In this document: piece after piece, positions 35,565 to 40,958 of the stretch
Position numbering within the stretch: position 1 is the first letter of the stretch
How the letters are laid out: the number at the start of each line of letters is the position of its first letter
Assembly: GCA_026989535.1 (NCBI GenBank)
Contig: JALSJD010000072.1
Coordinates: 1 to 64,000 of the forward strand
Reading direction: 5' to 3'
Source: Cyclobacteriaceae bacterium
GTDB taxonomy: Bacteria; Bacteroidota; Bacteroidia; Cytophagales; Cyclobacteriaceae
DNA length: 64,000 nt
The notes under the pieces: model-generated
Seen by the model: the letters and a program-made list of their open reading frames with translations, nothing else
What the model was told of the DNA's origin: nothing
Databases searched by the model: none
Translations under genes and position numbers: made by a program

Positions 35565-35773
35565 GTCATTATGGGTGTATAACATTTTGTCGCTAATTAT
35601 TTATACTGTTATTTTAGGAGTAGGTAAGAAAAAAACAACCACTTACGTCATTCCTCCCGAGTACTCGGGAGGAATGACGATTTCTATTTTGCTTTTCTTT
35701 TTAATAATAGGTTAGGGGGCTTGCACAAAATGGTTTAAACTAAAACGACAAAATGTTATGCACCCGTCACTAT
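35565..35773. mobile_element. MITE-like element with about 20-bp ITRs and an imperfect 8-bp target duplication
   Basis: ITRs 35573-35592 GGGTGTATAACATTTTGTCG and 35746-35765 (revcomp GGGTGCATAACATTTTGTCG, 19/20); flanks GTCATTAT/GTCACTAT. Confidence 0.75.
35646..35679. repeat. 34-bp perfect palindrome CGTCATTCCTCCCGAGTACTCGGGAGGAATGACG
   Basis: Self-complementary with no loop, inside the MITE-like element. Confidence 0.95.
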
Positions 35774-38718: not shown

Positions 38719-39324
38719 GTGTTGGCTATCCTTTACCGTAGGTGTTTGGTTCAACAAAGCATAAAAATAATGGGTAATCTAACCACACAAAAAATACACT
38801 TAAAAAACTTGCAAAGTAAATGTTGTGTTAGGGCTATTAAATTAGACCTTGAAAGTATAGGTGTAAAAATACTAAGTTTAAACACCTTTTTTGTGGAAAT
38901 ACAGTATGATAAGAACACAATAAGCAAAAAGAAAATAATTGAAATCTTAGCCCTTTCTGGCGTATCCATAATAAACTCACGAGAAGAAAAAATAATAGAA
39001 GAAGCTAAAAAAGCTGTTTACGAGCTTATATTTGAAATGAATAATGTAGATTCTATTGTGAAAAAATCTGAATATATTGTTGAAAAAACAGGCTACAATT
39101 ATCGATTTATATCTAAACTGTTTTCAGATTATGAGTCTATTACATTAGAAAAATACATTATTCAACAAAAAATTAAAAAAATCAAACAATTAATTATTGA
39201 AGGTGAATTTTCATTAAGTGAAATTGCCTATATGATGGACTATAGCAGTGTGCAATACCTTTCTACTCAATTTAAAAAAGAAACTGGCATAACAGTAAGC
39301 CAGTTTAAAAACAGTACTTTTTGA
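38719..39324 (+). CDS. AraC-family transcriptional regulator
   Basis: C-terminal two-HTH AraC domain (FSLSEIAYMMDYSSVQYLSTQFKKETGITVSQFKNS); N-terminal HMA-like fold lacking CxxC; the start may be ATG 38770 (MGNLTTQ). Confidence 0.9.
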   Translation: MLAILYRRCLVQQSIKIMGNLTTQKIHLKNLQSKCCVRAIKLDLESIGVKILSLNTFFVEIQYDKNTISKKKIIEILALSGVSIINSREEKIIEEAKKAVYELIFEMNNVDSIVKKSEYIVEKTGYNYRFISKLFSDYESITLEKYIIQQKIKKIKQLIIEGEFSLSEIAYMMDYSSVQYLSTQFKKETGITVSQFKNSTF

Positions 39325-39521
39325 GTCCACTCCGAAAAACACTCAAAACCAATCGCTGAAAGCTCGGGATGGCAATATTCCCATCTTTCAATTAGCTAAT
39401 ACTCAGGCATCACCTTCGTGTAGCCGCTATGGCAGAGCAAGGCATTGCCGAATCTCGAAAAATGAAAATTTTATCCAAAACAACTCTTTTTGTAAAAATT
39501 GTCTGTTTTCGGAGTGGCCTC
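39323..39521. mobile_element. MITE-like element with 16-bp ITRs and a 7-bp target duplication
   Basis: ITR GAGTCCACTCCGAAAA (39323-39338) vs TTTTCGGAGTGGCCTC (39506-39521); direct repeat ACTTTTT at 39316-39322 and 39522-39528. Confidence 0.88.
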
Positions 39522-39540
39522 ACTTTTTAGTATTTTTCAT

Positions 39541-39582
39541 TTTTGCAAATAGTATAACTCTTTTGCAAAAAAGTGTAATACT
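39541..39582 (+). promoter_or_regulatory. Tandem direct repeat, candidate AraC-type operator
   Basis: TTTTGCAAATAGTATAACT / TTTTGCAAAAAAGTGTAATACT with 20-21 bp period, upstream of TATCTTTG (39601-39608), which fits the Bacteroidota -7 TANNTTTG. Confidence 0.6.
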
Positions 39583-39666: not shown

Positions 39667-39909
39667 ATGAAAATACGAAATAACATAGCTGTAAGTGAAA
39701 CAGGGTTTGTATTTGACCCTAATAGCGGTGATTCATTCACTTTAAACGAAACAGGAAAACAAATATTAAATATGCTTTCTGAAGGAAAAACAGGATCTGA
39801 AATTAAACATTTTTTTATTGAAAATTTTGAGGTAGAGGTAACCACTTTTGAAAATAACTTTAGCGAATTTTTAATGATGTTACAAGGTTTAAATTTAGTT
39901 GAAGAATAA
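39667..39909 (+). CDS. PqqD-like RRE protein
   Basis: NNIAVSETGFVFDPNSGDSFTLNETGKQILNMLSEGKTGSEI...VTTFENNFSEFLMMLQGLNLVEE, the PqqD winged-helix pattern. Confidence 0.85.
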   Translation: MKIRNNIAVSETGFVFDPNSGDSFTLNETGKQILNMLSEGKTGSEIKHFFIENFEVEVTTFENNFSEFLMMLQGLNLVEE

Positions 39910-39914
39910 ATCTT

Positions 39915-40958
39915 ATGAAACCAAAATATACCATAGCAGTTACAAGCCTTAACAATACAGATAACCCTGGGGCAGGAGTTCCTGTAATTAGAGGATTACG
40001 TGAAGCAAAAAGTTTTGATGTACGCATTATAGGATTGGTGTATGAGAACTTAGAACCTGGTATATATATGGAAAATGTAGCTGATAAAATTTATCAAATA
40101 CCCTATCCTTCAGCTGGTTCTGATGTTTTTATGGAACGTATTGAGTACATCCATTCAAAAGAAAACATAGATGTTATTATTCCAAATTTTGATGCTGAAT
40201 TATTCACCTTTATGAAGTCCGAACACGTCTTAAAGGATATGGGTATTAAAACATTTTTACCAACTATTAAACAATTTGAAGAAAGGCATAAATCAGAACT
40301 TCCAGAGTTTGGCAAAAAATACGGCTTTGACATTCCTTTTAGTAAAACAATAACCAACCTGTCAGATATTAAAAACTTACAGTACGAGTTTAATTACCCT
40401 GTATTAGTTAAAGGAAAATTTTATGATGCTTATTTGGCTTATACACCTGAACAAGTAATCGAATTTTTTAATAAAATAAGTTCAAAATGGGGTGTTCCAG
40501 TAATTATTCAAGAATTTATTAAAGGTACTGAGGTAAATGTTATAGCCTTAGGAGACGGTAAAGGAAACACCATAGGATCAGTACCTATGCGTAAACAGTA
40601 TATAACAGACAAAGGAAAAGCTTGGGGAGGAATTACCTTAGGGGATAAAAATCTAATGAAGATTACAAAAGACCTAATCAAAAAAACAAAGTGGAAAGGT
40701 GGTATGGAATTGGAATTTATCAAAACCCAAGAAAATAAGTATTATATCATTGAGATAAATCCAAGAATTCCTGCTTGGGTTTATCTTGCCGTAGGTGCTG
40801 GGCAAAATTTACCAGAAGCACTTGTTAAATTGGCACTTGGCGAAAATGTAGAGCCTTTTAAATCGTATGATGTAGGGAAAATGTTTGTGCGATATTCACA
40901 AGATATTATTGCTGATATATCTGTGTTTGAAAAATTATCAATGATTGGAGAATTATAA
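39915..40958 (+). CDS. ATP-grasp ligase (CarB-like)
   Basis: NYPVLVKGKFYDAYLAYTPEQ, VIIQEFIKGTEVNVIALGDG, GGMELEFIKTQENKYYIIEINPRIPAW. Confidence 0.92.
   Translation: MKPKYTIAVTSLNNTDNPGAGVPVIRGLREAKSFDVRIIGLVYENLEPGIYMENVADKIYQIPYPSAGSDVFMERIEYIHSKENIDVIIPNFDAELFTFMKSEHVLKDMGIKTFLPTIKQFEERHKSELPEFGKKYGFDIPFSKTITNLSDIKNLQYEFNYPVLVKGKFYDAYLAYTPEQVIEFFNKISSKWGVPVIIQEFIKGTEVNVIALGDGKGNTIGSVPMRKQYITDKGKAWGGITLGDKNLMKITKDLIKKTKWKGGMELEFIKTQENKYYIIEINPRIPAWVYLAVGAGQNLPEALVKLALGENVEPFKSYDVGKMFVRYSQDIIADISVFEKLSMIGEL

Follow-up and report, generated by a model that had tools for sequence, protein, structure and literature searches.

MITEs have been described before in the Bacteroidota: BrickBuilt, MITEPgRS and MITE239 of Porphyromonas gingivalis carry inverted ends common to full insertion sequences, and they have two further likenesses to the element described here (PMC4596501), namely an intergenic placement and, for BrickBuilt, ends that also start with GAG. 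They are set apart by ends that match IS5 (of the GAGACC...TTGCA type), by otherwise different sequence and by internal tandem repeats (PMC4596501). In Coxiella burnetii, the MITE QMITE2 lies at the 3' end of enhC, whose product gains 33 residues from it in one strain (PMC5896051). This case resembles our locus in that a MITE placed at a gene's 3' end affects the translation stop, and differs in that the protein end considered here would stay unchanged. Among transposases, the likeness is to IS1182-like insertion sequences (DUF772 plus DDE), with similar transposase domains, short inverted ends and a staggered-cut duplication. The ISDol1 group of ISNCY, with duplications of 6-7 bp and a length of 1.6-1.9 kb, would fit. 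Our literature search, which covered titles and the opening parts of abstracts, returned no IS1182-related MITE and no case of a MITE-made stop codon, the 16-letter end sequence was not found in print in the literature searched, and the term 'stop codon' is absent from the main text of one review (PMC10969869).

The element under study lies in a window of 64,000 nucleotides, the whole stretch of DNA that was analysed, and spans 199 bp (39323-39521) as delimited by sequence reading, BLAST, flank reconstruction and copy alignment. Its left inverted end, GAGTCCACTCCGAAAA (39323-39338, plus strand), recognized by reading and by an end-sequence search of the genome, is answered with one mismatch by the right end at 39506-39521, which reads GAGGCCACTCCGAAAA on the reverse strand and TTTTCGGAGTGGCCTC on the forward strand. 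Both sides are bounded by ACTTTTT (39316-39322 and 39522-39528, plus strand), so that reading the window bears out the original prediction of 16-bp inverted repeats matching at 15 of 16 positions inside a perfect 7-bp target duplication. The element holds no open frame of 60 aa on either strand and is in this respect, as in its inverted ends and duplication, a short, transposase-free sequence within the 50-1000 bp range of MITEs.

The insertion falls into the stop codon of an AraC-type regulator gene (38719-39324, plus strand; an open frame with HTH_18 and HTH_AraC domain matches), which probably starts at ATG 38770 and not at GTG 38719. The gene ends AAC AGT ACT TTT TGA, and its TGA (39322-39324, plus strand), located by sequence reading, frames and flank joining, straddles the junction just as had been proposed: the T closes the left duplication and the GA is contributed by the element, as its first two bases. 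Joining the flanks with one duplication removed gives the same last residue followed by TAG, the predicted ancestral ending. We infer that the ancestral gene ended with TAG and that the insertion, which most likely left the protein unchanged, would have been close to neutral.

The element is far from unique. A BLAST search with the 199 bp gave 59 matches within the genome, which totals 3.82 Mb over 252 contigs, and the 16-bp end occurs there 212 times with at most two mismatches (101 and 111), as against three occurrences (2 and 1) of the same pattern written backwards. Such a high copy number is characteristic of MITEs. The best full-length match to the window copy is only 84% identical, and the insertion therefore need not be recent. 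From 85 stretches around listed end positions together with the window copy, a partial set drawn from among the matches listed, we obtained 79 complete copies, defined by ends with at most three mismatches and a length below 260 bp. These measure 53-199 bp, most commonly 160 (22 copies), 73 (11) and 159 bp (10). Exact duplications are of 6 bp in 41 copies and of 7 bp in four, 45 of the 79 in all, with a 9-bp match in one more and none in 33; among 6006 pairings of flanks from different copies, a 6-bp agreement arises in 0.85% and a 7-bp agreement in 0.05%. The 7-bp duplication thus stands for the window copy and fails as a norm of the family, whose usual length is 6 bp. The targets are not random in sequence: T precedes the left end in 67 of the 79 copies, A follows the right end in 71, and 31 of the 41 six-base duplications fit ANNNNT. 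As many as 72 copies lie outside open frames of at least 80 codons, though such frames cover 78% of the DNA.

The distribution of the ends across genomes is patchy. With at most one mismatch they number 0-1 in each of four genomes of the same genus (G001-G004), and 24 and 25 in two genomes of the same order (G026 and G029); ends without mismatch occur in five of the 390 genomes of the order, the window genome among them. Searching GTDB contigs for the end sequence plus GT returned at least 118 stretches, and among the matches listed all but about ten titles name Bacteroidota lineages. The loci from other genomes comprise 75 short end pairs and 79 single ends.

What could have moved the element? 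Another Bacteroidota genome carries an intact insertion sequence of 1842 bp (L269:4353-6194) whose ends match with 0 and 2 mismatches, which is flanked by the duplication AAAATT and which contains one frame of 574 aa. It supplies the autonomous partner with common ends; the window genome itself holds only a truncated relative. In Pfam, the protein scores 49.2 bits for DUF772, above the cut-off, and 19.6 for DDE_Tnp_1, below the required 23. Against the IS1182 model NF033551 of NCBIfam it reaches 84.4 bits and falls short of the curated cut-off of 270, which is why we call it IS1182-like without placing it in the IS1182 family; the ISNCY_1 model is touched only weakly (22.1 bits, cut-off 325). 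An end sequence widespread in the Bacteroidota is in this way tied to an IS1182-like transposase.

A search of 39 genomes with the 574-aa protein had a single match, at C51:421-1128 in the window genome, an open frame that lacks its first part and runs into an end with one mismatch. This truncated protein scores 58.1 bits for NF033551 and 24.1 for DDE_Tnp_1_6, below the cut-off of 25.1. With it as query, the own genome contained no further copy (each of two queries found one truncated match), and a plasmid search gave one record, 24% identical. Past the inverted repeat its end differs from the MITEs, and it counts as a relative without being a proven parent. Its frame (L287:130-1314) extends through the element's inverted end and terminates just beyond the element.

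The original prediction also called for an allele of the araC locus without the insertion. The search yielded no close empty site: across 39 genomes, the best AraC match outside the own genome (by E-value) is 36% identical. The ATP-grasp gene of the downstream operon is present in 35 of 390 genomes of the family, and in two of the 29 relatives' ATP-grasp loci examined an AraC gene lies directly upstream, its product 39-41% identical to that of the window. Both of these genomes keep the order AraC, PqqD, ATP-grasp without the element, and their AraC is about ten residues longer. The gap between araC and pqqD measures about 198 and 90 bp in these relatives, compared with 342 bp in the window with the element and one duplication, and 136 bp without them. 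These spacings would agree with an insertion, at a divergence too great to reveal the junction.

A closer comparison is provided by other members of the family. The T/GA junction forms the stop of an open frame of at least 80 codons in six of the 79 copies. In three of them (araC of the window, L077 and L125) the reconstructed empty site keeps the stop at the same codon; in two others the reconstructed frames are 3 and 9 codons longer. For the SIS-domain copy at L077, protein ends vary among relatives and allow no comparison. The sixth lies at serS (L083), identified by Pfam as a seryl-tRNA synthetase gene, and has no exact duplication, hence no reconstruction by its removal. In the window genome serS ends EMIS-TGA with its stop within the element, and in the same-genus genomes G001-G004 (80-91% identical) it stops after the same residue with TAA, TAG, TAA and TAG. 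In G002 the stop is followed by a different element, L339:2775-3037, of 263 bp with ends GGGCTTGCTGAAAAA and the duplication TAATTA, which rebuilds TAG as TA/G, and G002 is for that reason not an empty site; the 127 bases 3' of the stop in G001, G003 and G004 contain no such element end. The same serS codon thus hosts different elements in two sister species, and both restore a stop. This comparison shows that a MITE can replace a stop codon while the protein end stays put, and together with the reconstruction at araC it supports the predicted exchange of stops without protein change, as judged from the sequences. When a target of this family, with its final T, is joined to an end that opens with GA, the junction itself makes a stop, so that TAG would become TGA and the protein would stay the same. 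Stop codon choice sets the release factor, RF1 or RF2. The exchange is always towards TGA, and it changes the release factor used.

Alongside the observed anatomy, family, duplications, target preference, matching insertion sequence elsewhere and the same exchange at serS, we consider it very probable that the element is a MITE from a family moved by an IS1182-like DDE transposase acting in trans, and that it entered the araC stop through a staggered cut of 6-7 bp, turning TAG into TGA with the same protein. The cut would fall between T and AG of the stop, and a transposase of the IS1182-like kind would have moved the present copies as non-autonomous elements. Copy number, ends, duplications and the matching insertion sequence support the assignment of 39323-39521 to the MITEs, as one member of a large family of ordinary mobile DNA.

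Could the stops themselves be the target? The transposase, or selection acting on the ends, might favour insertion after the T of TAA or TAG, with the element supplying a harmless stop, but we regard this as very improbable. The counts do lean that way: there are three exact exchanges among the 79 copies (four counting an 84-codon frame), where 0.72-1.10 would be expected under a null model in which copies may sit at stop junctions or in intergenic positions, with weights from the target preference (P 0.02-0.05), and in G002 the same stop of serS is likewise rebuilt, by the element with GGGCTTGCTGAAAAA ends. The three to four hits include, however, the serS copy, joined without duplication removal, and the very araC copy that prompted the question, without which two of 78 remain here and two of 75 elsewhere. 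The 75 complete copies from other genomes, with two exact hits against 0.79-0.92 expected, give P 0.19-0.23, and copies are mostly intergenic there too (68 of 75, compared with the 72 of 79 here). Taken together, the 154 copies, among them that of the window, yield five exact hits where about 1.7 would be expected under neutrality, and this does not show targeting. We conclude that stop exchange recurs as a side effect of joining targets that finish in T to ends that start with GA, and that harm acts as the filter, as indicated by the scarcity of copies within called frames in both samples. The family offers a countable test of stop codons as safe harbours for mobile DNA. A wider version, in which several Bacteroidota IS1182-like families with matched ends and targets (T/GA, and TA/G for the GGGCTTGCTGAAAAA family) would repeatedly enter stops as safe harbours, as at serS, seems to us unlikely.

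It is very improbable that the element has been retained for an effect on expression, be it as an RNA hairpin that ends or stabilizes the araC message or through the spacing between araC and an operator. To the right of the element lie two copies of TTTTGCAAA 20 bp apart (39541-39569, plus strand), a candidate operator, followed by the PqqD-like first gene of the operon (39667-39909, plus strand; frame and domain match) and its ATP-grasp gene (39915-40958, plus strand; frame, domain match and search of relatives); further downstream are a PLP-dependent decarboxylase and a urea transporter/M23 peptidase. The predicted separation of araC from the candidate operator by about 200 bp is correct as geometry, and an effect of the element on the operon is unsupported: because a regulator of this kind presumably works in trans, the extra spacing may be of no consequence. 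The element folds better than its shuffles (z -3.1 as DNA, -3.4 as RNA), a result that the inverted ends alone could explain. Of the copies whose neighbours are called to the left and to the right, 65 in number once 14 at the edges of stretches are set aside, 18 lie in convergent gaps; among other gaps, 18 of 130 are convergent. Such an excess is also predicted by avoidance of harm. Moreover, the interiors of the 53-199 bp copies differ widely, and Rfam has no match for the element. The weakest alternative, an inverted repeat that arose by chance or was made locally and is not a transposon copy, is contradicted by the copy number, the duplications and an insertion sequence with the same ends, and we give it almost no credence.

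The interior of the MITEs varies between copies. Among 35 copies aligned out of the 50 with a length of at least 150 bp, the window copy, L076, L084, L130 and L134 carry an additional unit, G+C-rich and about 35 bp long, that lies between copies of GGCAT. The 32-bp unit GCCTTCGCGTAGCCGCTATGGCAGAGCAAGGC (39412-39443, plus strand, in the window copy), is absent from most copies of the class of about 160 bp and occurs nine times genome-wide with at most three mismatches, at least one occurrence, C79:11711 (L094), lying outside the MITE family; the unit also stands in L330 near 1655. This suggests that the unit is a small repeat in its own right. Different G+C-rich hairpins occupy the same inner positions in other copies: in L070, L082, L085, L105, L109 and L325, inner A+T-rich hairpins are singly swapped for unrelated G+C-rich palindromes at the same position, for example ATCCCGAG...CTCGGGAT.

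Two further features of the window deserve mention. The ATP-grasp gene is up to 66% identical to genes of other genera, compared with 52-54% within the genus, hinting that the operon may have been acquired by transfer. A perfect 34-bp palindrome, CGTCATTCCTCCCGAGTACTCGGGAGGAATGACG, is located at 35646-35679.
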